This document shows, piece by piece, positions 1 to 64,000 of a DNA stretch of 64,000 nt (its first letter is position 1; the number at the start of each line of letters is the position of its first letter). The position numbers were made by a program, and so were the translations under genes. The DNA is taken from positions 4,588,001-4,652,000 of the forward strand of contig NC_060254.1 of NCBI RefSeq assembly GCF_921293095.1, read 5' to 3'. The DNA is from Ischnura elegans (lineage: Eukaryota > Arthropoda > Insecta > Odonata > Coenagrionidae). The notes beneath the pieces were generated by a model. It worked only from the letters and a program-made list of their open reading frames with translations. It was not told where the DNA came from and searched no databases.

Positions 1-30
1 CACTGACTTCGTAAAATCAAGAGTTTACTG
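1..30. mobile_element. Right terminus of a pogo/Tigger-like element, cut by the window edge
   Basis: These 30 bases are identical to the right end of the element at 41579-46852 (…AAGAGTTTACTG) and are followed by TA. The rest of the element lies left of the window. In the other copy of the flanking sequence (62954 onward) the element is absent and the TA is intact, so this is an insertion polymorphism with a TA target duplication. Confidence 0.8.
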
Positions 31-397
31 TATCTACACGAGTAGATAGGAGTTTTACATTGTCTGAGATTACCTATGCGTGCATGAGCCACAGAGCTCA
101 TGGAAACATGTCTTAACAATCAACTATTAAAACTGCCTATGGTGGGAAAGTTTCCTTTGTTTGATAAGGTATTAATAATCCTTATTAATCCAAGCGCTAT
201 CTGCTAGCAGGTTACTCTGCTACCTGCTAGCAGCCTGCATCGTAGCAGTGCTCATAGCCTTGCACCAAGGTGGCAGCCAGAATCAGAATGATGTCACATG
301 GATTTTTCCCAGCATTCAAAATTAGATGTTGCGTTTTCGCATGCTTGAAAATTTTCACTTTTCATTTAAACGCGAAAAATAGATTAAAAAATCATAA

Positions 398-436
398 AGC
401 GTGAAATAAGTACTCCAGGAGTACTTATTTCACGCT
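398..436. repeat. Near-perfect palindrome, 19-nt arms
   Basis: The arm AGCGTGAAATAAGTACTCC is followed by one base and then its exact reverse complement. The same palindrome is present in the right copy at 63321-63359. It may be a relic of a MITE or a replication-prone hairpin. No function is evident. Confidence 0.85.
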
Positions 437-556
437 ATAGTACATCTTTTAATTTAGGCAATAAAAAAAATAGGAAACCATCCTATTGCATTTGGTGGTC
501 GATAGCAATACCAGCATTCCGTCAATAGTCAGCATGTGGCTTAATATTGTTGCACT

Positions 557-650
557 CACGTTATTAATGAGTGTGGATGTCCGGAAGTAATGATATCTGA
601 TAATGGTGCACAGTATGTAGGCAAGGTATTGAAAAGAGTTGTTTGGCATT
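557..650 (+). pseudogene. Gypsy-type integrase fragment (C-terminal half of catalytic core), left copy
   Basis: The plus strand encodes a stretch containing PEVMISDNGAQYVG, which matches the second catalytic aspartate region of Ty3/Gypsy integrases (P..ISDNG.QF). The frame closes quickly on both sides and no LTR is visible nearby. The N-terminal part of an integrase is found at 60375-60575, so the two may be halves of one element interrupted by other repeats. This is old, non-functional retrotransposon debris. Confidence 0.6.
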
Positions 651-1767
651 CCTCTGCACCACACTGCTCCTCCAGTGGCATTGGCTGGGGTATATTATCT
701 GAGTGATGGGGATTTGCGTTTTGGTTACAGAACGGGACTTTAGGCACCGCGGAGAGAACCACAAAGGTTGCAGAAGTCGAGACAGCTAGTGAGTCAACAG
801 CTTGAGGTGTTTCCTTTCCATTTACCTTCCTTTTTCTACCCCCTCTCCCTTCCTTAGAGATACAGGACTCGGGACACTTGAAGAGTGTAAGTCACCGAGG
901 GAATCACAAAAAGGACAAACCTTTCATTCCCTTCACCTCCAATCAGAGTGCAGGCGGATTGATCCTCAACTCACCTTTCCTGCACTGGCACCCTTATTTG
1001 CACCTTGGTTATCAGATTCTAGTGATTTGAGCCACTCGTCATCAACCACATCCAAAGCTAAGCAGGAGAAACAGTGCCATATTACGAAGTGTTTAGAGAA
1101 TTTTCAACTCGAAGCATACCTCTCCATTAATGCTTGGGAGTCTTCTAGCTTTCTGTCATAAATATAAAAATTGCCGAAGGAATTGAATTAAAGGTAAGAT
1201 CAGCAATTTATGGATTTATGGCATCAAAAACTAAAATATGAACAGAATGCTGACAGAAATTCTACACTGTTTCACATTTTCATGAAAATATGAAAAATGC
1301 TTACTCAAGGCCTAAGATATTGAGTTCCATTCGATGGCATGTTATGATACTCATAACGGAATAACCTAAAAACTATAGAAACTTTGTACAAATAGAAAAT
1401 AGAGGTACAGTAGGTAAGGGGTCAATCACATAACTACATTTAGTCCAATATTACATCATCCAGTTCCTTCAGCACCTCGGTACATTGACAACACATTAAG
1501 TAATTTTTGAGCACTTTCCACGACATAAAAACCAGCAGAAATGGTAACTAACAGAGAAATCATCCGATAAAATATTACCTCCCAGTGATATTCACCCACA
1601 TGGCACTTGAATTCTTTGGTTAATCACGCTTGCATGAGAGAGGTCGTAATGACAAAAAAAATTAAAAATGGCTTTCTCTTGCAAGCGGAATCCCCACTAA
1701 AAGGACCGGATACCAAAGGAAAAATAATCACAATAATGAAACCAAAAGTTGGAAAAAACGCACTTAC

Positions 1768-1897
1768 ACTTTTGTGGTAACGCCACTTGTAACCAGAAGC
1801 TGCGCACGAACTAATTTATCAGAATTGGCCAATGTTTCCAAAGCCTTTAAGGCAGCATTATGCTTCGCCTCTTTCTTGGAACGTCCACTTCCCGTCT
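1768..1897 (-). CDS. dsRNA-binding protein (R2D2/TARBP2-like), coding exon 2 of the left gene copy
   Basis: This 130-nt exon completes the first dsRBD begun in 1969-2110. It starts after TTTTAG and ends before GTAAGTG. It encodes TGSGRSKKEAKHNAALKALE, the beta3-turn and second helix of a dsRBD, with the KKxAK RNA-contact motif intact. A short acidic/hydrophobic linker ends in TSGVTTK. The exon leaves a two-base phase (GT). No downstream exon to the left lies in the window, but the exon at 55738-55940 begins with the single base that completes valine. That is where the transcript would continue in a tandem neighbour copy. Confidence 0.85.
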
Positions 1898-1968
1898 CTA
1901 AAACAGAACAAGTTTTAATAGCAACGAAAAGTTTGAGTACTTCATAAGCAATGGATTATCGCCCATAC

Positions 1969-2110
1969 CTCGGACATTTCCTGCTGTCACGACGTACTGA
2001 AAGAAAGTATCGTGTCCAGCACTATCCGTAATGAGCTCATACTGAGGAGTAAATCCCTTTCTCAGCATATACTCATTCAAAGTTGACATCGGCGTTTTGG
2101 CCGTGGCCAT
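1969..2110 (-). CDS. dsRNA-binding protein (R2D2/Loquacious/TARBP2/PRKRA family), first coding exon
   Basis: ATG at 2110 starts MATAKTPMSTLNEYMLRKG, the first helix of a type-A dsRBD (compare the KTP.x.LxE signature of TARBP2 and PRKRA), followed by beta strands through FFQYVVTAGNVR. The exon is 142 nt with donor GTATGG and is separated from exon 2 by a 71-bp intron. Family members bind small-RNA duplexes or precursors and partner with Dicer for RISC loading. The length and two-dsRBD layout of the joined product (301 aa) resemble R2D2 (about 310 aa) and PRKRA. I cannot separate these subfamilies by eye, so no symbol is given. The upstream region is CpG-richer than its surroundings. The downstream exons of this copy lie left of the window. 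Confidence 0.85.
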
Positions 2111-2151
2111 GATGTACCGGTTTACGCCCCAATTCTAAGGGAGTGTTTCTA

Positions 2152-2290
2152 CCTAATACACACAAAATAAAGGGCATGAGAGTTAACCAATTCACTACAA
2201 CCATAAACACGTGAGATGACTTATTACATACCTCTTAAATTATTCAGCACAATACACTTGTCACGACACACAGTTAACCACCAGCCCCGA
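2152..2290 (-). promoter_or_regulatory. Possible 5' UTR intron and upstream non-coding exon of the dsRBD gene
   Basis: On the minus strand a donor-like GAG|GTATGT sits at 2232/2231 and an acceptor-like TATTAG|G at 2153/2152, 42 bases before the ATG. A non-coding first exon ending at 2232 with a 79-bp intron is therefore plausible. CpG-richer sequence at about 2280-2500 could be promoter. There is no direct evidence for a start site. Confidence 0.3.
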
Positions 2291-2559
2291 TAACGAGCGC
2301 GTCCCGAGATTCACTGGCAGTACTGCCGGTGCTGCCAAACCGTTCCGAAATCAAATGGCAGTACGGGCAAGGGGGCGACAGAACTGCGATATATCGTATA
2401 GAAAACCTCTTTCGATTCGATTTTTCCGGAGCCCCAGTGGTCCAACGGCCTACCCAACATAGAGGCGCTGGTGTAGCCTGTTTTTCTGAGCAGTAATGAA
2501 CTGGGGGCTGCCATATTGAATCTCGATGTAAACAAACGTGATATTGAGGCTTATTGATA

Positions 2560-4780
2560 GTCATTAGTGTTAACTGCAGACTTTTTTTTATTGCTTACAG
2601 TGTCCCTTACGATTTTGGAATGTGCTCGATGAAGGATACGAGTCTCAATGATCTTGGTTATTGCTAAATTGCGTGGGTATGAAATGTATTTGGTGATGAA
2701 AGTGTGAGTAATTCTGTTTCCTTCATTATTCCATTTTGATTTCAACCTGTGATTAGCTAACCTTTTCTCATGTTTTCAAAATTTTATGGTGTCTTGTATT
2801 CCTTATATTTCAATATGTTTTTCATTGTACTTGCAGTTTTTCTAGTGTTCAAACTACTCATTTATCGCTAGTGCTATGCTTTCGTTTGTTTAATGCTAAT
2901 CATTTTGTTGGTTATGTATGTAATTTGCTATTTCAACTCTGTCCTTTCAACTGTTTAATTGTCATTAATTGAGCATCATTCATTAAGTGTTCTACGATGT
3001 TTACATTTCTTAAAACTTTAATCTCTTTCATTTTGAAGTAAGAACTTAATTTCTACTACATTGGTATAAAATATTCTTCACTTTTCTCGTTTTCTACTTT
3101 TGGAATACTTTCTTTCGTATAAGTGATTGATATTAACTTATAAGAACCTTTCATTTTAAGACTCCTCTGCCAAGATATGTTGCATATCTTAATGGGTACT
3201 CATCATGAACAACTTCCTACGAAATAATGTCCTCCTTTCATAATTAAATAATTATCTTCCATGAAATGATATCCAAACTTGCATGCTTATTTCTAGTGAA
3301 GTATTGTTATGGTCTATGGTTTCAGGATTAGCATTGTTTTCCCTGTACCAGAGCTATTGCAAGATACATCTACCTCAAGGAAAATTGGGTCACCCTCTTT
3401 GTCTATAACTGTGGAGTGTTTAATTAAGTAATGGAATCTTTCTCCTATTACGCAAAGGCTGCTCATCTCATGTTGTCATTGATATTGTTGTATTGTTGAT
3501 ATTGAAATTGTTATTGTTGTATTTCTTTTGCCAGTTATTGTATCAATAAATACTAATGTCCACTGAAGTAAGTTTCCGAGATCATTATTCTTACCAACCA
3601 CCAGATCGCCAGTTGACTTTGTACATTAATCTTGTATTATGGTTACTGCTTTAGTAACCTGGGGAAGTTCTTCAGGAAGATTTTCCTACATTCACTGCTT
3701 TTAAGTTTCTCGCAATTGCAGTATCATTATTAGGCCTGAATAGCACGCTCTATCGTGACGCGTAAAAAAAATTGAAACACGCGCCGAGATGTGCATTCAA
3801 ACTTCGCGGCAGCATTGGACCACTGGCATAGATGGCACTGGTGTATCAAAACCTATACGCATTATCCTTATGGGTATCCCCTTGGTACGGGGGCCTTCAC
3901 AGTTCGGCGTTGCGCAGAGTCCTCTGGATGGCAGTTCTCTACACTACTCCCTCATAGGGTCGAGTCGTTCCATACACTTCCACTATGGGAATTGAGACGT
4001 CCGCCATTTTAGTTCTTCCGTCTCTATAGAGTCTTATGGGGGAAAGTGATATAATGCCAGTTTTTTCATAAATACGCGATTCCTGTCGCATTTTCGGTAA
4101 TTATAATATATTCAGTCTTGAGGTACTAGGAACACTTTACTATCAATTTGTAAATTTTAAATCGTGAAAAATAACAAATATTCGCGCTTCAGTTAAGTTT
4201 TGATTCTTTTCACAGGATGTTTTTCTAGATATGAAACTCTCATATTTATGTCTGAAACAGGGTAAATTGTTTCCAAAAGTACAATTACTGCTCCCAGGGC
4301 TACTATATAGCGTTTTGTTCTCGTCAAAGGAATAATTTCAGATTTTGAAAACTACAATATCAGCTGAGAGAGAATTGTTATCTTCAGATCGGAAGAGATT
4401 TCGCATGTACTATCTGAGTTAACTTCCATGAAAACAGCGCAATGGATATTATACGAGGAATTTAAGGACAAGTCTGGTCAATTCTTAGTGCCGAAAAATC
4501 GGAAATATTATCCTACCTCAAAATTAGACAAGAAAAACTAAATAAGTCACAAGCTGTCATGCAGTTTATGTACTTTTCACGAGAGTTGCAGATCATAAAA
4601 GATATCATCAAAGGAGGTATATAAAAGAAAAAAATCACATTTTTCCAAAGTCTATAATGTACACACACCACAAATGTTACATTTTAAGATTTCCAGAATG
4701 ATTTAACAATTCCATTGAAACTAAGATTATTTACATAATGCAAAATAAAAAATAAATGTTAAGTGCACAAGATGTAACAT
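2560..4780. other. AT-rich stretch without a recognisable gene
   Basis: Mostly T-rich low-complexity DNA. Around 3888-3915 there is a match to the inverted-repeat terminus of the element at 57419-58373 (GGCCTTCACAGTTCGGCGTT), so a degenerate copy of that family lies at roughly 3780-4010. Nothing else is supportable. Confidence 0.5.
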
Positions 4781-4785
4781 TTCTA

Positions 4786-4867
4786 TTAAAATGGATTCAA
4801 ATTAGTTGGAGAGAATGATGAATAGGTGATGACAGCTGCCACACATCTTGCATTCTTCTCAATGTTG
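4786..4867 (-). pseudogene. Out-of-frame continuation of the terminal exon: dsRBD alpha-2-like segment
   Basis: Directly after the in-frame TAG, a second reading frame encodes EHSNIEKNARCVAAVITY and ends at TAA (4786). ARCVAAVITY fits the AKxxAAxxAL pattern of the last helix of a dsRBD. It would complete a third, divergent dsRBD if one base in AAAGGAACAT were extra. The segment may therefore be coding sequence pushed out of frame, or ordinary 3' UTR that resembles it by chance. Confidence 0.4.
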
Positions 4868-4914
4868 CTATGTTCCTTTACCACCAATGACATTGACTAC
4901 TCGAGTATATGAAC
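4868..4914 (-). CDS. dsRNA-binding protein, terminal coding exon (right gene copy)
   Basis: The acceptor TTACAG is at 4920-4915. The two bases GT complete the arginine codon left by the exon at 20769-20859. The frame reads RSYTRVVNVIGGKGT and stops at TAG (4868-4870). With the preceding exon it looks like the first helix and two strands of a weak third dsRBD that is cut short. All seven coding exons then sum to 906 nt, an exact number of codons. The stop may be caused by a one-base frameshift (see the adjacent entry). No clear AATAAA was seen on the minus strand just downstream. Confidence 0.55.
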
Positions 4915-5969
4915 CTGTAATTAAAAATATAAATAAAATTTCGTTAACTACACCAAAAGCATTAATTCACAAGTAATTTTAATGAACAGCATCTCAGTGA
5001 TACATCAAATTCTCACAATCAACAGTCATGATAAAGTTCTATAATGTGTTAATGTTTATTAAACTTGCAATCACTTAAGTTTCTATATCATATTTCATGG
5101 TTTGAGCAATAGGAAATTAATAAATTAAATTTCAATTGGCAGACAACTTTCGGGAAATTAATTCTATTACCAAGATGGCAATCTTCCTGTCAGCATACAA
5201 AATTATAAAAAGGAATAATATGACATTAACATTCCACAACACTGTTACTCAGTGGCATAACTACGGGGGGAGGAAGGGAAAGATCCCTCCCCAAAGCCTC
5301 AGAGAAATAAAAAAATTATTTATAATTATTTTATATATTGAACTGCATCGACTAAAAGTTAAATCTTTAGTGCCAAAATGATTTCAAATGTATTTCCAGG
5401 AATGTTATTCTTCAAAAATTTTCTTGGACTGATTCGTTGTCTGATGGGGGGAGGGGGGGTGCCACCCCAGGCCATCCTATCCTTCCCAAAGCATATTCCT
5501 AGTTAATTTCATGAACATAATAACATTTCATACATACTAATTTCCTCTGCAAAAATAAGGGGGTACTTCGTAACTGGAACTTTAAAACTTGACTGAAGGA
5601 TAAAAAGCAGTGGCTTCATAGTATGTGGTTTACAATATCATTGATTAAAAGATTCAACCATGTTGCAATGACCTATTGCAAAATTATTTTAACCATATGC
5701 TGAAGTAGAAAATTGAAAGTAAGAATTACAACTCTACAGCATGCTTAAAACACTCTGTTGTACTTCAACCATACAGTATAGTAGGCCCTTATAATGTATT
5801 CTACTGAAGACAAAATGATTCTTTGGTGTTCTATACAAAAAATACGAGAACTAAACAAGAAACCCAAAAATTACATTTAAATATGAATTATCTTCTGCAT
5901 GTTTATCGATGAAGCCATAATATCTTTGGAAAAGAATGACGCCAATCTTTATCTTTATCTTTATTCATC

Positions 5970-6528: not shown

Positions 6529-8934
6529 TTATTTTGCATGTCCCCAGAGTCGAACACCATGGGCAAGAATACTATGAAAAAAAGCAAAATAGGCTAATCT
6601 CATGTACTTTACATTGATACAGGTTTTAAGTTTCCTCAATAAGTACAAAACCCTAGAGAGTTTTTTGCTGACTAGGAAAACATGTGAATTCCATGTCAAT
6701 TTAGCGTCAATATTGAAGCCTAGAAGCCTGACAGGATCATTGTTTAGCTCAGTACTTTTAAGACAGCATGTAAGATGTTGTGTCTTACCATTGTTCAGAA
6801 AGAGATTATTGGCTGTAAACCAGAGTTGAGATTCTTCTATTGCCTTTTTTGTAAGAAGTCTGACTTGGCTAGGAGTATTGCATTTCTGCACCAGAGTGGT
6901 GTCATCTGCATATATCATGCAGTCCATAGAAAGATTGTAAGGTAGGTCATTGATTAGAATAAGGAACAAGAGAGGACCAAGGACGGACCCCTGAGGAACT
7001 CCATGTTTCACTGGAAGAAAATCAGATTGGTTACAATTTACTTGTACCATCTGCTTTCGATCAGTGAGGTAAGAGGTCATGAATTTCAGCTCACTGTTAT
7101 GAAAGCCGTAGTATTGGAGTTTTTGCAGGAGGGTAGCATGATTGACGCAGTCAAAGGCAGAGGTTAAATCACAAAGTGTGAGTGAGACACATTGCTTGTC
7201 TTCAAATGCCCTTGATAAATTTTTTACCACTGACTCAACTGCCAATTCAGTGGATTTCCCCGGGCGAAATCCAAACTGGGAAGGGGTGAAGAGATTGTGT
7301 TTCTCAAAGTGTACTAGAATTTGTGTATAGGCAATAGTTTCTATTATTTTAGCGATCACTGATATAATGGTGATGGGCCTATAGCTGTTGGGAAGAGTAG
7401 TGTCTCCTTTTTTGAAGACAGGTATGACCTTAGAATATTTTAAGGAGTCTGGGAAGTATCCAGTGGAAAAACAGGCATTAATAATAATAGATAGAGGATG
7501 AGCTATAATATGTATTATGGACTTAATCAGATCATTGGAAAGCCCATTGATGTCACGACTGGTGGAGTTTTTAAATTTTTTTACTACATTGAAAATATCC
7601 CTCGTACTAATCCATTGCCACTGAAATTTAGGAGGGGATATCAGGTGTTTATTGAGTAGTGCTAAGGCATCACACCTGTTATTTGTGATTTTTGATAATG
7701 CGGTGTCCACGGAATTGACAAAGTGATTGTTGAAGGTATCGGGATCAATTGTAATAGGAGATCTGTTTATAGAAGTGCCTTTTTCCCTATTGATCACATT
7801 CCAGGCAGCTTTGAATTTATTAGAGGCACTATTAATGAAATCCATGTTCGCATTTTGTTTCGCTTTTATTGCTGCGAAATGATACTCCTTATTCAATCTT
7901 TTATACACTTGTTTCAAATCCTCAGTGGGTAGTCGCTTGTACTCATGATAGGCATGTAGTACACTTTCCCTGCGTATTTGGACCTCGGGATTGTTTGAGT
8001 GGCCACGTGATTTAAAGAATTTTCGGACTGGGACAGCTTTTCTGGGAAAGGATTCATTAAAAAGGGAGATTAAGGTTTCAAAGAACAAAGAGAAATTTGA
8101 ATGACTGTCGTTGAGTGAGAGTAAGCTAGTCCAATCCACACCACCAAGCAGGCCTTTAAAGACTTCAAGGCCGTGAATGGTGATTGGACTTTTGTACCTA
8201 GTGCTGGATTCCCTAGGTGGACTATTGTTAATTGCAATCAACTGAAAGAGTATGGCCATATGGTCTGCAACAAGAGGATCGATGACAGTAAGGTTATATG
8301 CATGAACATTAAGAGTGGTTATCACATTATCAATACATGAATTGTTCCTCGTGGGTTCACTGTTTACACAATAGAGGTTGAAAGATCTCAGGAGATTAGA
8401 CAGTTGCCTGCTACTCTTAGAGGAATATCTCATATCAATGTTTAAATCAGCACCAATTACAATGTTAGCATTAAACTGCATTAAATGACATAGTACCTTT
8501 TCAAGCTGTTCAAGAAACTTTTCAGGGTCGCCATTAGGTGACCGATATAGGGAGAGAACAATGAGATTGTATACACACAGAATAACAGCTGTGATTTCGA
8601 AGTGCAGTTCAATGCAGTACCTAGTAGTATCGATTACTTTAAATTGAAGGTTCTTTGATAAAAATATGCACACACCACCATGTATATGATGAGAGCGACA
8701 GAAAATTGAGGCAAGATTGAAACCGTCCACCTGATAAAGGCTACCTTCATCAACATGAAGCCAATGCTCACTGATACACAGAATATCACAATTTACTGAG
8801 TTGAGAAATAGTTCTAATTTAGTTATTTTATTTCGGAGACATTGTACATTCAGGACAGCAAGATTAATGAGTTCCTTACCAGCTGTTGGTTCAAGAGGAG
8901 CACTTCTTGTGATCACCAAGTTGGGATTCCCTAG
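6529..8934 (-). CDS. LINE-1 ORF2: AP endonuclease and reverse transcriptase
   Basis: The reading frame follows directly after the ORF1 stop. The first methionine is about 145 codons in, downstream of the first endonuclease motifs, so it cannot be translated whole from its own AUG. The endonuclease shows NVQCLRNK, ILCISEHWL, GADLNID and ADHMAIL; the usual SDH reads ADH. The RT shows NSYRPITIISVIAKIIE, FGFRPGKST, SAFDCVNH, GVPQGSVLGPLLF and the catalytic YADD. The product would nick target DNA and prime cDNA synthesis. The frame stops at LWGHAK, short of the usual C-terminus. The frame is the same as ORF1, with UGA-CUA-G between them. Confidence 0.9.
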   Translation of the reverse strand, partial: LGNPNLVITRSAPLEPTAGKELINLAVLNVQCLRNKITKLELFLNSVNCDILCISEHWLHVDEGSLYQVDGFNLASIFCRSHHIHGGVCIFLSKNLQFKVIDTTRYCIELHFEITAVILCVYNLIVLSLYRSPNGDPEKFLEQLEKVLCHLMQFNANIVIGADLNIDMRYSSKSSRQLSNLLRSFNLYCVNSEPTRNNSCIDNVITTLNVHAYNLTVIDPLVADHMAILFQLIAINNSPPRESSTRYKSPITIHGLEVFKGLLGGVDWTSLLSLNDSHSNFSLFFETLISLFNESFPRKAVPVRKFFKSRGHSNNPEVQIRRESVLHAYHEYKRLPTEDLKQVYKRLNKEYHFAAIKAKQNANMDFINSASNKFKAAWNVINREKGTSINRSPITIDPDTFNNHFVNSVDTALSKITNNRCDALALLNKHLISPPKFQWQWISTRDIFNVVKKFKNSTSRDINGLSNDLIKSIIHIIAHPLSIIINACFSTGYFPDSLKYSKVIPVFKKGDTTLPNSYRPITIISVIAKIIETIAYTQILVHFEKHNLFTPSQFGFRPGKSTELAVESVVKNLSRAFEDKQCVSLTLCDLTSAFDCVNHATLLQKLQYYGFHNSELKFMTSYLTDRKQMVQVNCNQSDFLPVKHGVPQGSVLGPLLFLILINDLPYNLSMDCMIYADDTTLVQKCNTPSQVRLLTKKAIEESQLWFTANNLFLNNGKTQHLTCCLKSTELNNDPVRLLGFNIDAKLTWNSHVFLVSKKLSRVLYLLRKLKTCINVKYMRLAYFAFFHSILAHGVRLWGHAK

Positions 8935-12080: not shown

Positions 12081-12129
12081 TGCATTATTCATTGGAATTG
12101 AGTCTTAAATAAATAGTCGAATGAACGAA

Positions 12130-15263: not shown

Positions 15264-15929
15264 GGATCAATTGTATTGCCATTAAAATAAAATTTATTTC
15301 AGGGGAAAATAACTCCACTTTTGGTGATGAAACAACAATGTCACCCTTTGCATGTGTCTATTCATTGGTAATCTCCAATACTTAATGATTAATTTTTTCC
15401 CTTTGCATTCCAAGAAATCCAAAATTAATGAATCTAAACCTCAAAGCAGATAAAGTTTTGCGGAAGGAAAGAGTTTCCGACCACAGGCTTACATGAAATA
15501 AAAATCCCAAAGAGATGAAGAGGAAGTTTCCTAGTGCATGACTTGGGTGCTGAGCACTGGACCACCATTGTCCGCATGTTTAAGTCTTTCAAAACGGTAT
15601 TTTATTACAGCCGCAATTGTTTTAACTATTGGTTATATATGGAGGATGATCCCTGGACAAGGTACCATGGACTGCAAGTCCATAAAGGTTGGATTGGATT
15701 CCGAGTCCCGGTTGAGGGACAATCCTAGCTAAAGTCGTTAATAATCACTCTTTAGTGTTATATAAAACATAGATAAATTTAATTCGTCAGCAAGAGAACA
15801 AAAGATATATGTAAATGCATTTCAAGCACAGCCAGAAAAAATAAAGGCTCTCCACATGGTGGTCGACTGCACCACCATTATTTGAAAAAGCGCAGAGCTG
15901 CTGCGCTTTATGATAGGAGTGGATTCAAG

Positions 15930-16967
15930 ATGGCGGATAGTGAACTAGCTTGTGCGTTATGCTCCGAAGTAATTGGCGAAAACCAAACGTTTTTATCGTG
16001 CGAATATGGCTGTAATGATATCTTTCATTTAGGATGCGTTGGTGTCTCTAAATCGTTAGCTAATTCAGTGATTAACAGTGAAAATTTCCTTTATCGCTGC
16101 AAAAAATGTGTGACTTCGCCGCCATGTGACTCGCCGCCATGTGACTCGCCGCCATGTGACTCGCCGCCATGTGACTCATTAAGCCAGATCCATAAAAGAC
16201 AGGAAGACATGTTCAAATTAATTCTTAAACTACAATTCAATGTTTCTTGTTGTGTAGAATTAATTGAATCGCAAAAGAATGAAATAGTGTCATTAAAGAA
16301 CGAACTTCGATCCAAGGTGGACTCAAGTAACAGCTCGACGTACGCTAACAAAGTAGTGTGCGCTCAAGAACTCTCTACGTTCAAACCTGTGCCTGCCGTC
16401 CATCCTCCAGCAAATCCTGTGCAAAAAAGTTCATCGATGATTAGAGTAGATTATAGTAAAAATCCTCAGCAAACTACCAAACTGAGGAATGTTACCAAAC
16501 ATGTGACCTTTGTCCCCAAAACAGTTAGTATTGATTCCAATGCGAGTAAAGATGTCAATCTAGTAAAGATTGATCCAACGAGGGAAACTCCTGATAATGG
16601 TGATAGTTACACAGTAGTGAAATCGAGACGTCGCAGGAAAACCCCGCTGGCCGTTGGTACCAAACCTCCTTCAGTGTGTACCCTGTCGGCAGTTCCACGG
16701 AAGACGCATCTGCATGTGTGGAGGTTTCTTCCAGAGACCACAATTGAGAATGTGTCTGATTTTGTCGTAAAAGTAGTTCCTGGGTCATCGAGTAAGGACT
16801 TAGACATCGAACAGCTTAAGGTAAGGGATAATAAATATGCCTCATTTCGGGTATCTGTGAGTCCCGATATCGGCAACGTCCTAATTGACAATGACGTGTG
16901 GCCAGAAGGTGTAGTGGTGGACAGATATTTTTTTCGGAATGCAACAAAGAATCCCCTTCCCGGATAG
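15930..16967 (+). CDS. LINE-2 ORF1: PHD finger, coiled coil and RRM-like protein
   Basis: The start at 15930 is preferred over an upstream in-frame ATG (15882) because it sits in CAAGATGGCG, the same context as LINE-1 ORF1. An N-terminal C4HC3-like PHD finger runs from CALCSEVIG to YRCKKC. Four tandem CDSPP units follow, encoded by a perfect 15-bp repeat. A coiled-coil-like segment (about 85-135) and a basic middle region follow. The C-terminal RRM-like fold runs from HLHVWRFLP to VVVDRYFFRN. This resembles nucleic-acid-binding ORF1 proteins of CR1/L2-type LINEs. The last 70 nt overlap ORF2 in the -1 frame, with a U-UUU-UUU heptamer at 16928-16934. Confidence 0.85.
   Translation: MADSELACALCSEVIGENQTFLSCEYGCNDIFHLGCVGVSKSLANSVINSENFLYRCKKCVTSPPCDSPPCDSPPCDSPPCDSLSQIHKRQEDMFKLILKLQFNVSCCVELIESQKNEIVSLKNELRSKVDSSNSSTYANKVVCAQELSTFKPVPAVHPPANPVQKSSSMIRVDYSKNPQQTTKLRNVTKHVTFVPKTVSIDSNASKDVNLVKIDPTRETPDNGDSYTVVKSRRRRKTPLAVGTKPPSVCTLSAVPRKTHLHVWRFLPETTIENVSDFVVKVVPGSSSKDLDIEQLKVRDNKYASFRVSVSPDIGNVLIDNDVWPEGVVVDRYFFRNATKNPLPG
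16116..16175 (+). repeat. Perfect 15-bp tandem repeat, four units, inside LINE-2 ORF1
   Basis: The unit TCGCCGCCATGTGAC occurs four times without mismatch and keeps the frame, encoding repeated Ser-Pro-Pro-Cys-Asp. A perfect repeat implies recent expansion, so copy number should vary between family members. Confidence 0.95.
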
Positions 16968-19822
16968 TTGACTCGCAGATAAAAGTGCTACATCTGAATA
17001 TTCAATGTATTCGCAATAAACTGCTTGAACTTGAAGTGCTCGCGAGTGACTATAAACCGGATGTGATTTGTTTAAGTGAACACTGGTTAAACCAAGAAGA
17101 AATATGCGCAATAAAACTCCCAGGGTATCGCACTGTCGATGTTTTCTGCCGTATAAACTATAAAAATGGGGGTGTAATTATATTACTGGAAGAATCACTC
17201 TGCCACACACCAGTTAAATGTACGAATTTTCCAAGATCGACTGATAAAATTTTTGAGTATTGTATTGTTGAAATTATGAAAGACGAGTGTAAATTCATTG
17301 TAGTTTCACTGTATCGATCTCCATCCACTGATTTCCGGGTGTTTCTGGATAAATTTCAACGATTAATTGAAGAAATTCATAAATGTAACAGGTACTCTAA
17401 AATTATAATAACCGGTGATTTCCACTGCAATTTACTCCACAATACAAAAGACAAAACTGATTTCTTAAATATTCTTGCCGCTTTTGATATCAAAATAACA
17501 AACTTTGCTCCCACTAGAGTTACTCACTCCACTCAAACAGTGATAGACAACATCCTAACCAACATTGACCTCAAAGATGTGAGCACCCAGGTAACTCATG
17601 AGCATATCTCAGATCATCTTCCCTTAATTGCTACCTTTAGATACAATGCAAATCCTGAAGCAAAGTGCCAAATCAAAAGAAACTTTTCTGACCAGAATAT
17701 GTCACATTTCCTACTGTCTCTCAATTCCCAGGACTGGTCAGAGGTCTTTAATGCTAAATCTTTTGAGGAGAGTTTCCATAGTTTTTACTCAGTTTATCTG
17801 CACCATTTTAATGTGTCATTTCCTATGGAAACGAGAAAAATACATTCTTTTAGACAAAAAAAGTCCTGGATCACAAATGATATAAAATTCTACTCATCAC
17901 TCCTTAAAAAACTGGCATATGAAACAAAATTGTCTGGTAGTTCCAAAAGCAAAGACCATTACAAACTCATGAAAAAACAGTACAGACTTCTTCTCTCGAA
18001 AGCTAAAAAAACATATAATGATGCAACTTTATCTAAAGCTACTAATAAAACTAAAGCTGCTTGGAAAATTATAAATAGTGCCAAAAACAAAGATGAAAAC
18101 TATGTCTTACCCAGCTCTCAATTCACTTCTAGTGAAAAGTCAAAATGTATGTATGATCTAGCTGATGCTTTTAATAAGCATTTTAGTTTGTTACCTGACA
18201 CCTCAGATGTAAGTCCTGGCACTAATTCTGCTGCGTTTAAGGCACCTTCTATCTTTATGATGCCCTCCAATGAAATAGAGCTAAAGTCCGTAATAGCAAA
18301 TTCATGCCAATACAGTTATAGTTCTGGTGTTGATGAGATCCCTGGTAATGTAATATACCTCAGCTATGATATGATTAAGTCTCCATTTCTGCATCTAGTT
18401 AATGAATCTCTGAGACTTGGAATTTTTCCAAACTCACTCAAAGTGTCTAAGATTGTGCCCTCTTATAAGAATAAAGGTAATACTGATGATTTGAATAACT
18501 ATAGGCCAATTGCACTGCAAAATGCATTTTCCAAAATTTTTGAAAAAATAGTCTACTCAAGATTTGTATCATTTTTAGACAAACATAAACTACTTTCTAG
18601 TAATCAACATGGGTTTACAAAAGGAAAATCCACAGTTACTGCTATTGCTCATGCAATTGATAAAATACTGGTATCCATTGATAATAGAAATGAAACTATG
18701 GCTTTATTCTATGATTTTACGAAAGCATTTGATCTTGTAAATCATGACCAGCTATTGATTAAACTTTATAGATTGGGCATTAGGGGTACTCCGCATCAAT
18801 GGATAAAATCATATCTACACAATAGATCTCAGGTGGTGACCATAAAATTTGATGGAGTCAAATATACTCCAACTGCTCGTCATTCAACAGTGGGTGTTCC
18901 ACAAGGATCAACTCTTGGTCCACTATTATTTTTATTATATGCAAATGACCTTTCATCATCCTTATCTTGTAATCAAAATAATACACCAGTTTTATATGCT
19001 GATGACACGACAGTGATAGTGTCATCCAATTCTGAACAATCATTGATTGATCAAGCTCAGTTAATTTCAAATGAGATCAGTAAATGGTCAAAGGATAACT
19101 TTTTAATTATTAACCCTAACAAAAGCAATTTAATGCACTTTAAGACCAGTGGCCCACGATCAGAAAACATCAGTGTAAGTCTGAACAGTAAACCTATTGA
19201 TCAAGTGGATAACTGTAAATTCTTAGGAATACATCTGGATTACAAAATGTCCTGGGCAGACCACATTGTATATATCAGCGGCAAACTTAGTTCTACTTGC
19301 TACTTGTTAAGACAGCTCAGTTCCACAGTGGAAAGGAAAACTTTATTAAACCTATATTACAGTGACTTTTATTCACATGTTACTTACAGTGTAATTTTCT
19401 GGGGATCAACTTATAAATCCATTAAAATATTCTGTCTACAAAAACGGGCCATGAGAATAATTGCTCATAAAGGCTATAGGTCTCCCAGTAGACCAATATT
19501 TAAAGAATTGCTTGTACTACCCATTCCGTGTGTATATATATTGTCAACTATTATGTATATAAAGAATAACCTGAAAAATTTCACTTTCAATAACAGTGTA
19601 CATAGCCATAACACTAGATCGCAAAGTGATATTCATCACAATTTTGTACGCACCAGAGTTACTAAAATGGGGCCCACAGAAATGGGCATCAAACTTTTTA
19701 ACAAATTACCGAAGGAGATTAAAAATGTAAATAATTCTAATTTGTTTAAAGCCAAGTTAAAAAAACTACTTCTGGCTAAAATGTATTATTCAGTTGATGA
19801 ATACTTAGGTGATGAATTTTAA
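16898..19822 (+). CDS. LINE-2 ORF2: AP endonuclease and reverse transcriptase
   Basis: Open frame of 974 codons overlapping ORF1. The first AUG is about 127 codons in, so expression probably depends on ORF1 translation. Endonuclease motifs are LNIQCIRNK, VICLSEHWL, ITGDFHCNLL and SDHLPLIATF (catalytic SDH intact; the usual GDFN reads GDFH). RT motifs are NNYRPIALQNAFSKIFEK, HGFTKGKST, YDFTKAFDLVNH, GVPQGSTLGPLLFLLYANDL and the catalytic YADD. The C-terminal region has LQKRAMRII and RPIFKELLVLP, which are decayed in LINE-1. The product performs target-primed reverse transcription. No internal stops. Confidence 0.93.
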   Translation: MARRCSGGQIFFSECNKESPSRIVDSQIKVLHLNIQCIRNKLLELEVLASDYKPDVICLSEHWLNQEEICAIKLPGYRTVDVFCRINYKNGGVIILLEESLCHTPVKCTNFPRSTDKIFEYCIVEIMKDECKFIVVSLYRSPSTDFRVFLDKFQRLIEEIHKCNRYSKIIITGDFHCNLLHNTKDKTDFLNILAAFDIKITNFAPTRVTHSTQTVIDNILTNIDLKDVSTQVTHEHISDHLPLIATFRYNANPEAKCQIKRNFSDQNMSHFLLSLNSQDWSEVFNAKSFEESFHSFYSVYLHHFNVSFPMETRKIHSFRQKKSWITNDIKFYSSLLKKLAYETKLSGSSKSKDHYKLMKKQYRLLLSKAKKTYNDATLSKATNKTKAAWKIINSAKNKDENYVLPSSQFTSSEKSKCMYDLADAFNKHFSLLPDTSDVSPGTNSAAFKAPSIFMMPSNEIELKSVIANSCQYSYSSGVDEIPGNVIYLSYDMIKSPFLHLVNESLRLGIFPNSLKVSKIVPSYKNKGNTDDLNNYRPIALQNAFSKIFEKIVYSRFVSFLDKHKLLSSNQHGFTKGKSTVTAIAHAIDKILVSIDNRNETMALFYDFTKAFDLVNHDQLLIKLYRLGIRGTPHQWIKSYLHNRSQVVTIKFDGVKYTPTARHSTVGVPQGSTLGPLLFLLYANDLSSSLSCNQNNTPVLYADDTTVIVSSNSEQSLIDQAQLISNEISKWSKDNFLIINPNKSNLMHFKTSGPRSENISVSLNSKPIDQVDNCKFLGIHLDYKMSWADHIVYISGKLSSTCYLLRQLSSTVERKTLLNLYYSDFYSHVTYSVIFWGSTYKSIKIFCLQKRAMRIIAHKGYRSPSRPIFKELLVLPIPCVYILSTIMYIKNNLKNFTFNNSVHSHNTRSQSDIHHNFVRTRVTKMGPTEMGIKLFNKLPKEIKNVNNSNLFKAKLKKLLLAKMYYSVDEYLGDEF
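16928..16934 (+). promoter_or_regulatory. Candidate -1 ribosomal frameshift site (T-TTT-TTT)
   Basis: In the ORF1 frame the codons read TAT TTT TTT CGG. The heptamer T-TTT-TTT is the canonical X-XXY-YYZ arrangement, and a -1 slip enters the ORF2 frame at TCG GAA. ORF1 ends 33 bases further on. A downstream stem or pseudoknot was not tested. Confidence 0.5.
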
Positions 19823-19979
19823 CTCTTTATGTTAACAGGTAATTATTCCTGATTAATTATGTATATCTGTATTTTTCTGTATTTACATGTATTATTGACG
19901 TGCCTTATATCTTGACCATTGCGAATGTACTAGATCGTTGGGCAAATAAAGATATTATTATTATTATTATGGTCACTCC

Positions 19980-20765
19980 TCCTCGCAGCGCCCGATCATC
20001 ATCATCAGAGCGTGAAGAAGATTGACCGACGCCATCTCTTCAGCTGCACTCTTGTCAGGACCTTCACCAAATTTCACCAACTCCGGAGTGGTACCCAGAC
20101 TAGCAGCGCACAATGCATTCCCAACTGTACAAGGGAGAGCAGAATTAGGCCAACGCGTACATCAACCCACGACTTGTTCTTTCAAAAACACCATTGAACA
20201 ACAACTAAGATTACCCGGGTAATTTTTTCAGTTTCTTGAGTAAGCTAAAGATTTCTCAGGCATCAGACAAAATTTATCCTTTCAACAAAAATTCAAAGTT
20301 TCACCTTCATTCTTTATTCACCATGGAATCTTCTAAAAATAGGTTGAATTTAATGTAGATTTGAGAAAAATGGAAAAATCTCGCGTTTATGAAAAAATTT
20401 AAGTTAGGAAAATAGTTTTAGCTTCTAATTAAATCGTTATCGATAAAAGCAGAAGATTCCGCAAAAGTAAGAGGTTTATGATAGGATACAACCCAACTAG
20501 AGGCCACACCCCACCCAAGGGAGAAAAAAAATACCTGACCAGAAACCAAAAATTCTGCCCTGCAAACCACTGCAATTAGGAGTGGCAATTAAGAGACTTT
20601 GGTTTGAATCCAAACTGAGCCACCAGAGTTTTTCACAGCCAGCATCAGCCTTGATTGAAACCCACTTTGCCTAACTGTGTGGGAAGTCACTTTTCAGAAG
20701 CAGTGTTTGGAAATAATGTTAAAGAGCTGCTCGAGTCAGCCACACAGCATACACAAGAGTGCACT
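19980..20765. other. Intronic DNA without recognised feature
   Basis: No exon, RNA gene or transposon boundary is supported between the LINE-2 tail and the next dsRBD exon. Confidence 0.45.
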
Positions 20766-20768: not shown

Positions 20769-20859
20769 GATTAGATTTCATGAACATGTAATCAAGAGGA
20801 AGGTCATTCCCTTCTGCAAACTTCTCCAAAGTCTCCTTGGGTGTGTGGCTCAACGCAAA
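20769..20859 (-). CDS. dsRNA-binding protein, penultimate coding exon
   Basis: 91 nt, with acceptor TGCTTTCAG before 20859 and donor GTAAGTG after 20769. In the phase left by the exon at 28978-29142 it reads FALSHTPKETLEKFAEGND followed by LPLDYMFMKSN and one leftover base. The pattern helix, then LPLDYMF strand, resembles the start of a third, divergent dsRBD (in TARBP2 and PRKRA the third domain mediates Dicer contact). The leftover base joins with GT of the exon at 4868-4914. It was identified from splice sites, phase and domain fit, without similarity search. Confidence 0.6.
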
Positions 20860-24710: not shown

Positions 24711-25385
24711 AATACCGTATATCTCAGAATATAGTCCCCCTCTGAATATAGTCCCCCCCCAATTTTGAGACCTCTGTTTTGGGAAAAATTTTAAAATGCA
24801 AAGGAAGGCAATTTTTCTGTGGTTAGCAAGTTAAGATTCTAGAGTCGATAAAAACCATTATTTTCTGTGAAGATTAAGAACAAATCTGTTCACATATTTT
24901 CCATCACAACAAAATAACTATACCTAAAACATGTTGTGATCCATTGCATGTATCAGTAATTTATAGTTCCTTAACCAGATGTAATGAAGAAATGAGAAAA
25001 TGTTTTAAGTATCCAAGGCTATTGTATTTTTTAAACATTCACAAATTATTAATATTTTTGATTTCGAAATGACTACAAACAATGTCAATATATAAGCTTT
25101 AACTTAAATCCCATAAACAGTATAGCATTTGGCCCTGAAACTTCCTTAGATCCAGTGTAACACACCCATCAAGTCATCACAAATCCAAGTGACCTGAAGA
25201 ATTTAGGAAATCTAAATAAAATTGTGTTAAATAAATTATAAACATTATAAAAATATTGCCATCAAATGCCTGCTAAGCAAAATAATTAAACTACAGGACT
25301 TACAAATATCAAAGTAATAAAATTTAGAAATAAACTTTTTCCAACAAACGTTAAAACTGAAAAAAATATTATATAAATTTTCAAT

Positions 25386-28977: not shown

Positions 28978-29142
28978 ACCTCTCAAAATTGACAGCTGAG
29001 GACCGTAGAGTTCTTGCAGCATCAGGTGAGACGTGCTGAGCGTTTGGCTCACATTCTTGCCAGCTGAACTCCCACCATCTTTATCCTTGATGGAGCAGTA
29101 GCCATCAATGGCAGCCTGATAATTTTTCTCCTCAAATTTCAC
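28978..29142 (-). CDS. dsRNA-binding protein, linker exon after dsRBD2
   Basis: 165 nt, exactly 55 codons, phase 0 at both ends. The acceptor is ATTATGGCAG and the donor GTAAGTGTG. It reads VKFEEKNYQAAIDGYCSIKD … STSHLMLQELYGPQLSILRG, which corresponds to the linker and lead-in helix before the C-terminal domain in TARBP2/PRKRA-like proteins. It follows the exon at 35346-35473 (…TVKQAEK) in phase. Conservation outside the dsRBDs is low, so support comes from splice sites, phase and position. Confidence 0.7.
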
Positions 29143-35345: not shown

Positions 35346-35473
35346 CTTCTCAGCTTGCTTCACCGTTCTCGTCTCACTGATCAAAGGTGAGGCCATGGCC
35401 AGATGTTCCCTTATCTTGTCAATCATCAGCTTGGCAGAAATTTGTTTGGCTTGCTTTTTTGTGCGAGCCTTCC
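35346..35473 (-). CDS. dsRNA-binding protein, second half of dsRBD2
   Basis: 128 nt, with acceptor TTGCTTCCAG and donor GTTAGT. Its first two bases complete the glycine begun in the exon at 55738-55940, giving REQGKARTKKQAKQISAKLM. That is the loop and last helix of a dsRBD with the TKKQAK RNA-contact motif. The remainder (IDKIREHLAMASPLISETRT and VKQAEK) is linker. The exon ends in phase 0 and joins the exon at 28978-29142. It is flanked on both sides by copies of one Tigger-like MITE family, 140 bp and 300 bp away. Confidence 0.85.
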
Positions 35474-55737: not shown

Positions 55738-55940
55738 CCTGCTCCCTTAGCGTAAGCACCTGGCAGAGAATGACAAATGTTTTCGAATGCGCAGGACCAG
55801 ACTCAGCCACCAGTTGGTACTCTGGTTCTTTGAGGTTCTGTTGCGCACACAGCTCTGCCAGCGCACCAACAGAATTCTCCGTCACCTGCTCAGCATACGG
55901 GGAGACAGCCACAGACGCAGCGTCATCCTTATCAAGTGCC
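55738..55940 (-). CDS. dsRNA-binding protein, exon with first half of dsRBD2
   Basis: 203 nt, with acceptor TGTGTTGCAG and donor GTGAGTA. The first base completes a valine started by GT of the exon at 1768-1897, so phase agrees although that exon lies at the other end of the window. It encodes an acidic linker (ALDKDDAASVAVSPYAEQ) and then ENSVGALAELCAQQNLKEPE YQLV … SGPAHSKTFVILCQV. This is a classic second dsRBD of the TARBP2/PRKRA/Loquacious/R2D2 group (N..G.L.E…PEY….GPAH.K.F). It continues at 35346-35473 across a 20.3-kb intron. Its 5' partner exons are predicted at about 64691-65033, just right of the window. Confidence 0.9.
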
Positions 55941-56500: not shown

Positions 56501-56585
56501 CTGGGAGTAGCCACGGAGATAACTTTACAGGAGTCACTTGCAAAGCACAAATTGTACGAAAAATTCACAGAGAAAAAAATCATTT

Positions 56586-57304: not shown

Positions 57305-57312
57305 ATAGGGAC

Positions 57313-57400: not shown

Positions 57401-57418
57401 ACATATTTCCCACCCTTA

Positions 57419-58675: not shown

Positions 58676-58679
58676 GAGA

Positions 58680-60370: not shown

Positions 60371-60374
60371 GCAT

Positions 60375-60575: not shown

Positions 60576-60892
60576 AAAGGTAGTGATTAGAGATGGGTCA
60601 AAAAGAACCGAACTGCCAAAACGAACTGTTCACTGAAATGAACCAGTTCGAAAATGAACCGTTCTCTAAAACACCCTGTTCACTGTTCATGTTGGCACTG
60701 CACAATTGCGGCGTACTCGGTACAGTAGGTATGATCATCAAGAGGCATTTTGAACTGCAGCTTACTCGAGCAAGTACGTTGTGGGTACAACAGATGGCGG
60801 TTACGAGGGAGGCCATTCAAGGCCGCCGAAGTGCGTCGTAGACGACCGAGCCCCTCCCCTTCTTTCTCTACTATTCCCCTCCGATAGCCACT

Positions 60893-61065
60893 GAACCGTT
60901 CGTTCTAACTAATATTTGAACTGATATTTAAAATATTAGTTCTTTCGAACCGTTCGAAATAACTAATATTTGAACTGATATTTAAAATATTAGTTCTTTC
61001 GAACCGTTCGAAATAACTAATGTTTGAACTGATATTTAAAATATCAGTTCTTTAGAACCGTTCGA
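60893..61065. repeat. 54-bp tandem repeat, about three units
   Basis: The unit GAACCGTTCGAAATAACTAA …TTTGAACTGATATTTAAAAT… repeats three times with a few changes. It contains GAACCGTTCGAA/TTCGAACGG-like palindromes related to the hAT ends. Confidence 0.85.
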
Positions 61066-61513
61066 AATATTAGATCAAATATTAGTTTCCTCGGGGCGTT
61101 CAGTTGGGATATCGCGTTCATTTTGCTTTCGTATTTTGAACATTTGTGGATCTGTGGATGCATCTCCAAAAATATTGTTTAAAACGCGATTCATGAACTT
61201 AGGAAACGATTGAACACATGATTGTGAAACATTTTTTTCGGTCCCTTTACCAAGTTGATATTTGGACTTAGTTTTTGGCGCCTACGATGAAATTTTAATT
61301 TTTTAAGTGCGCTGTATTGTGCAATGTGGATGCATCTCCAAAAATGTTGTTTACAACGCGATTCATGAACTTAAGAAACAATTAAAGTCTTTGGACTTTG
61401 TTTTTTCAGGTGCATCATCTAACTAGGAGTTTAATCGTTTCTTAAGTTCATGAATCGCGTTTTAAACAATATTTTTGGAGATGCATCCACATTTCACATC
61501 ACATCGCACTTAA

Positions 61514-62345
61514 CCCTTTCGAGACCGCAGAGTTTTCGTCTTAGCTTGACTGCTGTACCGCTCCCCAAGAGACTCTTCTTTCTCGTGGTACGGAGCATTT
61601 TTGGAGGGCATTCGTTAAGAAGGGTCTCGCTGAACCTTTTTCGACCCCTCCACGGTGGGACTCCGTATTATCTCGGACTCCAAGAGTAGTTGTGCTCCCT
61701 CCTTTCCGGGTTTACGACCATACCTGCGGCATTGGTTCGCGGTCAACTTATGTATTGCTTATATGTATTTAGCAAATGGATAATTGTTGCTTGCACGTAA
61801 ATTACAGGCATTGAATATAATTCCTCATTTTTATCTGAGCATTGTCAAATTTTAAACGAAGTTCTAAGGCCATTATCAAAGCATTTAACGCAGCAACAAT
61901 TTCCATGTTGATGTTTATACATAACTCGAGATAAGTTAATATTTGTCGTAGAATTACGTTTAAAAATTGTAAACGCTGCTCAAAAGACAAACAATTCAAT
62001 TCTTAGTTTATATTTCTTGAGAAATGAACAAATATTTATTTCGAAAATTGACTCTATAAACAATTGTATGACCGCTGTCCCTTACCGCTGAGAGAGGTTA
62101 TAAAAGACGAAGGGTCCGGGTACCTGCTCCCGGATTCGGAGGGTTAATCCTAAACCCCGAAGCGTTGGGTCCCGAGACAAATGCGACCTAAACCCACGAC
62201 AGTCCTGAAAGGGGGAGAGCTCGAAAACGTATATATACGGGTTTCGTTTTCTTGACCGGGAAAATCTCACACGTATATATACGCCCGTGGTCTCCCGGGT
62301 CAGGAAACGTCCACACGTATATATACGTGTACGGTAGGGAAAAGG
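61514..62345. mobile_element. piggyBac-type MITE nested in the hAT element, 832 bp
   Basis: TTAA flanks (61510-61513, 62346-62349) with ends CCCTTTCGAGACC and …GTAGGGAAAAGG. The hAT element carries an inverted duplicate of this neighbourhood at about 61255-61340 in which the TTAA is unoccupied. Three copies of the palindrome ACGTATATATACGT-like lie near the right end. Confidence 0.8.
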
Positions 62346-62953
62346 TTAAAAAATTTCATCGTAGGCGCCAAAAACTAAGTCTATAACTAAAAAAGAGTAT
62401 ATGATGACAATATAAAATGTGTACATTGTATCCACTATTTATGTTTTTCTTAGGTTGGTCGTACAGATATTTACTTTTAACTGGTTTAATCTATATTTTA
62501 CCCTGCGTCGCTTAAGAGTTCTCAACTGATGATAGTGGGAAACACATATTTGGCTCCAAATTACATCAAATTACTTGTTTGTATCTGCAAACTTTGGCAA
62601 GCTTGTAATAACCTATTAATCGCACACCACACTAAGCTTTCATGTACTCTAAACGCATGATAAACAATATTTTCTACCAGATGACCCTACCTGTTCACTA
62701 TGAACCGATATTTTGAACTGTTCTTTTTACTGAACAGGATCAAAGTGAACGGTTCATAAAAATGAACAGTTTAACCCACCTCTAGTAGTGATTGTGATTC
62801 GTTACCCACGATTAGTGTCTTCATAATATACAAATTATTTGGTTTTAGAAATCCCAGTTTAGACGAATGTCAATGGTCATTTTTAACCTCATTTGAAAAA
62901 GGCCAGATTGGCGCCCATGCCAATCCACTCCACGTGACGTCACAGTGGCCTAG

Positions 62954-64000
62954 TATCTACACGAGTAGATAGGAGTTTTACATTGTCTGAGATTACCTAT
63001 GCATGCATGAGCCACAGAGCTCATGGAAACATGTCTTAACAATCAACTATTAAAACTGCCTATGGTGGGAAAGTTTCCTTTGTTTGATAAGGTATTAATA
63101 ATCCTTATTAATCCAAGTGCTATCTGCTAGCAGGTTACTCTGCTACCTGCTAGCAGCCTGCATCGTAGCAGTGCTCATAGCCTTGCACCAAGGTGGCAGC
63201 CAGAATCAGAATGATGTCACATGGATTTTTCCCAGCATTCAAAATTAGATGTTGCGTTTTCGCATGCTTGAAAATTTTCACTTTTCATTTAAACGCGAAA
63301 AATAGATTAAAAAATCATAAAGCGTGAAATAAGTACTCCAGGAGTACTTATTTCACGCTATAGTACATCTTTTAATTTAGGCAATAAAAAAAATAGGAAA
63401 CCATCCTATTGCATTTGGTGGTCGATAGCAATACCAGCATTCCGTCAATAGTCAGCATGTGGCTTAATATTGTTGCACTCACGTTATTAATGAGTGTGGA
63501 TGTCCGGAAGTAATGATATCTGATAATGGTGCACAGTATGTAGGCAAGGTATTGAAAAGAGTTGTTTGGCATTCCTCTGCACCACACTGCTCCTCCAGTG
63601 GCATTGGCTGGGGTATATTATCTGAGTGATGGGGATTTGCGTTTTGGTTACAGAACGGGACTTTAGGCACCGCGGAGAGAACCACAAAGGTTGCAGAAGT
63701 CGAGACAGCTAGTGAGTCAACAGCTTGAGGTGTTTCCTTTCCATTTACCTTCCTTTTTCTACCCCCTCTCCCTTCCTTAGAGATACAGGACTCGGGACAC
63801 TTGAAGAGTGTAAGTCACCGAGGGAATCACAAAAAGGACAAACCTTTCATTCCCTTCACCTCCAATCAGAGTGCAGGCGGATTGATCCTCAACTCACCTT
63901 TCCTGCACTGGCACCCTTATTTGCACCTTGGTTATCAGATTCTAGTGATTTGAGCCACTCGTCATCAACCACATCCAAAGCTAAGCAGGAGAAACAGTGC
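62954..64000. repeat. Right copy of the long terminal direct repeat
   Basis: Matches 31-1077 (offset 62,923 bp), reaching the end of the window. It is preceded by …GTGGCCTAG and the TA that is the unoccupied target of the Tigger-like insertion seen at 1-30. If homology continues, the 5' exons of the dsRBD gene should recur at about 64691-65033. Confidence 0.95.
63480..63573 (+). pseudogene. Gypsy integrase fragment, right copy
   Basis: Identical to the fragment at 557-650 (PEVMISDNGAQYVG). It may be the distal half of the integrase whose proximal half is at 60375-60575, split by repeat X and the hAT element. Confidence 0.6.

Follow-up and report, generated by a model that had tools for sequence, protein, structure and literature searches.

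The window analysed here, a stretch of 64,000 nucleotides from the damselfly Ischnura elegans (C9, positions 4588001-4652000), is very probably a slice of a tandem array of R2D2-like genes; this confidence concerns the array only and does not extend to any effect of gene dosage. In the assembly this RNAi-helper gene has about 12 copies in two clusters on two chromosomes, and there are processed copies in addition. The duplication exceeds what the window alone could show. The original prediction described a gene with circularly permuted exons, but the permuted order is a property of the window's frame, which cuts across the array, and not of the gene.

The gene consists of seven exons with a coding sequence of 1011 nt including the stop codon, and the 336-aa translation differs from P0002, a named Ischnura elegans protein, only at residues 2 and 336. 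The exons in the window lie on the minus strand and belong to two copies. Copy C9_2 contributes, at the left end and as originally predicted, E1 (1969..2110, 142 nt, donor GTATGG), which carries the start codon and the first half of dsRBD1, and E2 (1768..1897, acceptor TTTTAG, donor GTAAGT), which carries the second half; its E3-E7 are located left of the window. Copy C9_3 contributes E3 (55738..55940, first part of dsRBD2), E4 (35346..35473, second part of dsRBD2, identical in the four copies read, with eight of the 12 not read), the linker exon E5 (28978..29142, 165 nt, in frame, missing from the shorter named isoform P0001), E6 (20769..20859, leading into the third dsRBD, identical in all 12 copies) and E7 (19973..20124, the remainder of the third dsRBD and the stop codon TGA). 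The E1-E2 of this copy were found right of the window at 64691-65033 (genome 4652691-4653033), just where they had been expected. The phase of E3 fits, as claimed, that of the exon which ends at 1768, and the proposed splice across the unit boundary is borne out by five retrocopies without the E2-E3 intron, in which the junction is visible as DNA. Two details of the predicted gene did not hold. The exons sum to 1011 nt and not to 906 nt, and the C-terminal exon proposed at about 4868 was rejected: E7 is the last exon both of the named proteins and of the retrocopies, and in retrocopy L029 the stop is followed by the 3' UTR and then poly(A), without sequence from 4868.

The evidence for the array starts with the ends of the window. 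Positions 30..1077 recur at 62953..64000, the start of the next unit (no strand assigned to either piece), with 99.8% identity (1045 of 1047 ungapped positions, offset 62,923), in agreement with the repeat originally reported, and also at ten other genome sites at 99-100%, one of them partial. This 1047-bp piece thus has at least 12 places at 99-100%, seven on C9 and five on C6, a number which by itself is a lower bound, as 40 of 10,090 candidates were scored. Genome-wide searches with E3 (17 matches, 17 of 17 candidates scored), E5 (17) and E7 (18) returned each time the same genomic set of seven copies on C9 and five on C6. By their lengths, C6 and C9 correspond to chromosomes 6 and 9 in the chromosome table of the assembly paper (PMC9975421), both of them autosomes. 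The units are about 61-77 kb long, and each contains one seven-exon gene on the minus strand, transposon-filled introns and intergenic DNA; as far as the exons were located, their order (E7, E5, E3, E1-E2) is common to all 12 copies. The units are near-identical, number more than two and are arranged head-to-tail in a single orientation, as in a tandem segmental duplication. A counterpart of E3 was also expected in the left flank, at -6983; it exists (genome 4577187-4577389) but sits at about -10.8 kb, because adjacent units differ in length.

The original prediction left a choice between tandem duplication and two haplotypes assembled in series. The head-to-tail repeated unit stood, but the haplotypes did not: a haplotypic duplication has at most two copies of otherwise the same structure, and here there are 12 intron-bearing genomic copies with differing insertions. 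A broader form of this explanation supposes that two haplotypes were placed in series or that one array was over-expanded and split over two chromosome scaffolds. The assembly (PMC9975421) was made from 26x PacBio data, for which the DNA had been sheared to an average of 12-20 kb; as the sheared fragments are shorter than a unit, the assembly could have collapsed or added units or assigned some to C6 in place of C9, or the reverse. Several copies resemble those on the other chromosome as closely as those on their own, and the published curation, as described in that paper, removed 25 haplotypic duplications, so that some did exist. Against this, neighbouring units are told apart by their insertions, by an inverted piece and by linked variants; given the insertions, the units are not a single sequence that was assembled several times. 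Moreover, 260 kb (260,000 bases) of the C9 array, with four complete genes in order, was read with zero N, a check that covers this part of C9. We consider an assembly artefact unlikely, although it must be noted that the copy number is the assembly's figure for one individual.

The intronless copies, five of one origin and a sixth, are distributed over C4, C5, C14 and C16, and their lack of introns, poly(A) and 5' truncation mark them as processed retrocopies. Between nt 217 and the stop, L029 and the spliced coding sequence agree at 794 of 795 positions. Taken as DNA copies of an mRNA, the retrocopies indicate that the gene has been transcribed and spliced and has a poly(A) site. The five of common origin begin at codon 73, immediately past an in-frame stop, and have no start codon; one of them carries a stop and lacks a codon, another has an apparent frameshift, and L029, L032 and L033 are otherwise open as far as the natural stop. 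With no start codon and two of the five broken, they are unlikely to be functional genes. The idea that the gene travels as transposon cargo was not supported either: the flank of L029 contains a C2H2 zinc-finger frame, and the flanks diverge past the shared part.

Some of the intron-bearing copies are damaged in the 3' UTR. In C9_3 a LINE in antisense orientation (15913..19966, plus strand) is inserted a few bases past the stop, after CCATAA, and the displaced remainder of the 3' UTR lies beyond it at 15758..15912 on the minus strand (genome 4603758-4603912), 98% identical to the retrocopy 3' UTR. The same interruption also begins in C9_1, C9_5 and C9_6, making four copies, and is absent from the remaining eight; the complete element was read only in C9_3. 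In C9_2 over half of the 3' UTR is missing because of an inverted piece. In view of these losses some copies may be poorly expressed.

The protein appears to be an R2D2-like Dicer partner with three dsRBDs, which would be expected to bind Dicer-2 and to load siRNA into Argonaute-2, but the R2D2 label is not secure. P0002 has two canonical N-terminal dsRBDs (Pfam PF00035, E 4.9e-29, two stretches). The third was not detected by Pfam in P0002; it is seen in the AlphaFold2 model as a helix, three strands and a helix at 263-331, a block with pLDDT 84-95. The pTM of the whole model is 0.35, which we read as loose placement of the domains. It is conceivable, but in our estimate very improbable, that the gene is Loquacious of the miRNA pathway. 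A relative from Hetaerina carries the name 'Loquacious-like', Foldseek places TARBP2 and Loqs-PB ahead of R2D2, and a topology in which the odonate rows are the sister group of Loqs survives the AU test (p-AU 0.244). Yet the ten rows that we labelled as Loqs, including two mayflies, form a group with 100/100 support that excludes the odonate rows, and a previous tree, which contained seven Loqs rows, likewise places the odonate rows outside; in neither tree do they fall inside the Loqs clade. The R2D2-like rows are long-branched and do not make up one clade. A look for a distinct Loqs gene of this species found no recognisable Ischnura protein among the 120 listed of 775 protein matches, many of them with incomplete names.

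Sequence comparison shows that the copies are recombining and share haplotypes across chromosomes. Pairwise divergence, with coding and noncoding pieces joined, is between 0 and 1.73%, 44 of 171 site pairs show four-gamete conflict, and both intron-6 haplotypes occur on both C6 and C9. E1, E2, E3, E5, E6 and E7 are open and gap-free in all 12 copies (12 variable sites in 883 of the 1011 nt). Variable sites are about a third as frequent in coding as in adjacent noncoding sequence (9 of 718 vs. 43 of 1189, Fisher p 0.002; 36 of 1182 noncoding sites and p 0.012 when a seven-site cluster of C9_7 is excluded), although these p values are rough, the copies being related and the pieces having been picked near exons. 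A hand count gave seven amino-acid-changing and four silent events, weak evidence for protein constraint. The amino-acid variants specific to copies are A2D, L64V, A92T, E206G, G225R, R332H and E336R.

We propose that unequal crossing-over between homologous units, long and rich in transposons, enlarged the array, that a multi-copy block was copied onto a second chromosome, and that gene conversion or crossing-over between the copies maintains their likeness. One 5'-truncated mRNA would have been reverse-transcribed, probably by LINE enzymes, and this retrocopy would have reached its five sites by later duplication; the other retrocopy, on C5, would be of separate origin. Amplification is surprising for a core RNAi gene, but the mechanism is an ordinary one. 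The most likely function predicted is that several copies make one siRNA-loading cofactor, hence the effect, if any, would be a higher dosage of the siRNA pathway, antiviral and anti-transposon. That such a dosage effect is under selection we put forward tentatively, at slightly under even chances; the remaining probability goes to a recent amplification that drifts neutrally or under weak constraint. Neutral amplification competes with this dosage step and not with the array: on this view a transposon-rich unit recombines unequally, growth is recent, the likeness reflects youth and gene conversion, and the extra R2D2 brings no benefit. The low divergence, the exchange revealed by the four-gamete conflict and the damaged 3' UTRs agree with it, whereas the reduced coding variation, and the six exons unbroken in 12 of 12 copies compared with two broken among five retrocopies of one origin, speak against it; it too falls a little short of an even chance. 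A more specific version of the dosage reading, in which some twelve intact copies of a core siRNA cofactor, converting one another on two autosomes, are a recent dosage response in an arms race with viruses or transposons, or a drive suppressor, with a copy number that probably depends on the individual, we regard as doubtful.

It is useful to compare this array with known systems. Insect R2D2 and R2D2-like genes also encode small tandem-dsRBD proteins of the Dicer-partner family, and duplicates are known: Tribolium is described as having two (Tc-R2D2, Tc-C3PO) and Drosophila one (PMC2395250), and Gryllus longicercus has two R2D2-like rows in both our trees. These are, however, one or two diverged copies, unlike the roughly 12 near-identical copies in two arrays in Ischnura. 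RNAi-pathway genes also duplicate in the Drosophila obscura group, where conflict with viruses, transposons or drive was the interpretation given (PMC6505081); the main text of that paper contains neither the word R2D2 nor loqs, and, in contrast to the duplicates it describes, the Ischnura copies form arrays and barely differ from one another. Co-amplified X/Y genes of Drosophila, reported as multi-copy and more than 99% identical and connected with RNAi and drive in that study (PMC6690552), resemble our case in being near-identical sets on two chromosomes, but in Ischnura the arrays are autosomal and the amplified gene is itself RNAi machinery. In the open-licence PMC literature we found nothing on R2D2 or RNAi in Ischnura elegans, on dragonfly R2D2/Dicer-2 genomes, on damselfly gene-family expansion or on tandem tarbp2/R2D2 in insect genomes, and the only match for Odonata and R2D2 concerned a spider virome.

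In Ischnura, attempts to knock down or edit this gene or to study its expression would hit many copies simultaneously, and short-read assemblies would probably collapse the array. An R2D2-like gene occurs once or twice in the insects compared (Drosophila, Tribolium, Gryllus), as opposed to the twelve-copy state here. This recent state is a natural experiment that bears on whether siRNA defence is limited by R2D2 dosage and on the way in which arrays on different chromosomes remain alike.

The circular permutation of the exons proved to be a framing effect of the window. Within the assembly (1.72 Gb, 110 contigs) the window lies at G000:C9:4588001-4652000, and the 260,000 N-free bases around it hold four complete tandem genes, all on the minus strand, whose exons follow the usual order. 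The left edge of the window is inside the gene copy C9_2, to the right of its exons E3-E7, and the right edge falls just short of E1-E2 of the next copy, C9_3. The tandem duplication at the core of the original prediction is real, and larger than was claimed. The end repeat of the window matches at 1045 of 1047 positions at an offset of 62,923, and E1-E2 of C9_3 are present, where they had been expected, at 64691-65033 in window coordinates. A counterpart of E3 on the left side had been expected at -6983; it does exist, but at about -10.8 kb because unit length varies, with 60.9 to 76.8 kb from one E7 to the next.

The gene consists of seven minus-strand exons defined by splice sites and phases (E1, 142 nt; E2, 130 nt; E3, 203 nt; E4, 128 nt; E5, 165 nt; E6, 91 nt; E7, 152 nt), which make up a CDS of 1011 nt, stop included. 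The proteins closest to its product, P0001 and P0002, are both named from Ischnura elegans. The translated CDS and P0002 disagree at just two residues, 2 and 336. E5 is absent from P0001, so one isoform may arise by skipping it. The predicted joining of E2 to E3 across the unit boundary can be seen in the DNA of an intronless retrocopy on C14 (L029), which agrees with the spliced CDS at all but one of 795 positions, from nt 217 up to the stop, and continues with the 3' UTR, then poly(A).

In the assembly the nearly identical gene copies form arrays on two chromosomes. The 1047-bp unit piece had 12 matches at 99-100%, seven on chromosome 9, of which one is partial with 912 bases, and five on chromosome 6; as 40 of 10,090 candidates were scored and 52 matches listed, this search gives at least 12. 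Among the other listed matches 28 represented a dispersed repeat (80-83%, part of the query) and 12 were short inverted matches within the same 12 places. Genome searches with E3, E5 and E7, in which all candidates were scored, yielded 17, 17 and 18 matches, respectively, and each found the same twelve copies. The remaining matches were to intronless pieces: two on C14, one on C16, two on C4 and, in the E7 search alone, one on C5. E1, E2 and E6 were read in all twelve copies from fetched pieces, E4 in four of the twelve. In Hetaerina americana a single protein cluster (P0003) contains two members, a hint of fewer copies there, with the proviso that clusters do not count genes.

The six exons read in every one of the twelve copies (E1, E2, E3, E5, E6 and E7) are gap-free and open throughout; of their 883 nt, 12 vary. 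Read by hand, this variation amounts to seven amino acid changes (A2D, L64V, A92T, E206G, G225R, R332H and E336R, the last involving two bases) and four silent changes. A comparison of matched pieces, E5 left out, found 9 of 718 coding and 43 of 1189 noncoding sites to be variable (Fisher p 0.002). Without a seven-site cluster seen in C9_7 alone the numbers were 9/718 and 36/1182 (p 0.012), and with E5 added and the cluster removed 12/883 and 36/1182 (p 0.012). The sites are not independent, hence we take the lower variability of the coding DNA as suggestive of constraint.

The original prediction allowed that two haplotypes had been assembled in series. Insertion and inversion differences between the copies are evidence against a single sequence having entered the assembly several times. 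C9_1, C9_3, C9_5 and C9_6 share an interruption of the 3' UTR at one site, which the other eight copies lack; in C9_3 it is a 4 kb LINE that lies entirely within the window. In C9_2 66 bases of the 3' UTR are left, followed by inverted unit DNA: a piece of about 3.3 kb (C9:4539899-4543226, equivalent to window 1930-4938) adjoins E7 and carries an extra inverted E1. Intron 5 contains a long inverted repeat (window 24727-25896 and 26618-27787, 96% over 1172 bases, spacer about 0.7 kb), which could form a dsRNA hairpin if it is transcribed. For the segment around it (23862-32514), coverage is complete in C9_1 and 39% in C9_2 and C9_4. Two LINEs with long open frames and reverse transcriptase and endonuclease domains are located at 6529-10044 (minus strand; one frame has a weak PHD-finger match) and 15882-19822 (plus strand). 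An open minus-strand frame of 551 aa with a DDE_Tnp_1_7 domain (37674-39329) encodes a piggyBac-type transposase, and broken hAT-like transposase pieces, one with a Hermes DNA-binding domain, lie on the minus strand at 12085-13316.

In the assembly the copies bear marks of sequence exchange. From E6 through to where E7 ends, 44 of the 171 pairs of 19 informative sites are in four-gamete conflict, and each of two haplotypes of intron 6 is present on chromosome 6 as well as on chromosome 9. The distance of C9_2 and C9_4 to C6_4 and C6_5 is 0.26-0.31%, whereas that to C9_1 and C9_3 is 1.35-1.52%. This pattern would be explained if the founding transfer brought over two or more unit types and recombination or conversion followed.

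Five retrocopies start at CDS nt 217, directly behind one common upstream repeat, and run through poly(A) into a common flank, which suggests one retroposition and a later spread through duplication. No difference separates the two C4 retrocopies across 2470 bases. A stop and the loss of a codon affect one of the five, an apparent frameshift another. The C5 retrocopy comprises E6-E7 and about 20 bases ahead of E6, and its flanks are different. The retrocopies look like processed pseudogenes. L029 adjoins a C2H2 zinc-finger frame and is matched across 2.4 kb by L031, the loci being on C14 and C16. Chromosome 13 is reported to carry the female colour-morph locus with zinc-finger genes (PMC10781644), and both C14 and C16 might belong to that chromosome.

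Pfam finds two dsRBDs in the protein, and a predicted structure model has a third dsRBD fold. Relatives with solved structures are TARBP2, Loqs and R2D2. In two trees the odonate rows lie outside the 100/100 group of the rows to which we gave the label Loqs. A sister position of the odonate rows to Loqs was not rejected (p-AU 0.244), therefore we chose the careful name R2D2-like. Gryllus longicercus has two R2D2-like proteins (P0019, P0032) and one Loqs-like protein (P0133); the pair is another duplication of the R2D2-like gene.

The arrays would have grown by unequal crossing-over, with a transfer of units to the second chromosome, and any functional effect may be one of gene dosage. What surprises is that a cofactor of RNAi occurs in about twelve copies, intact as far as they were read.
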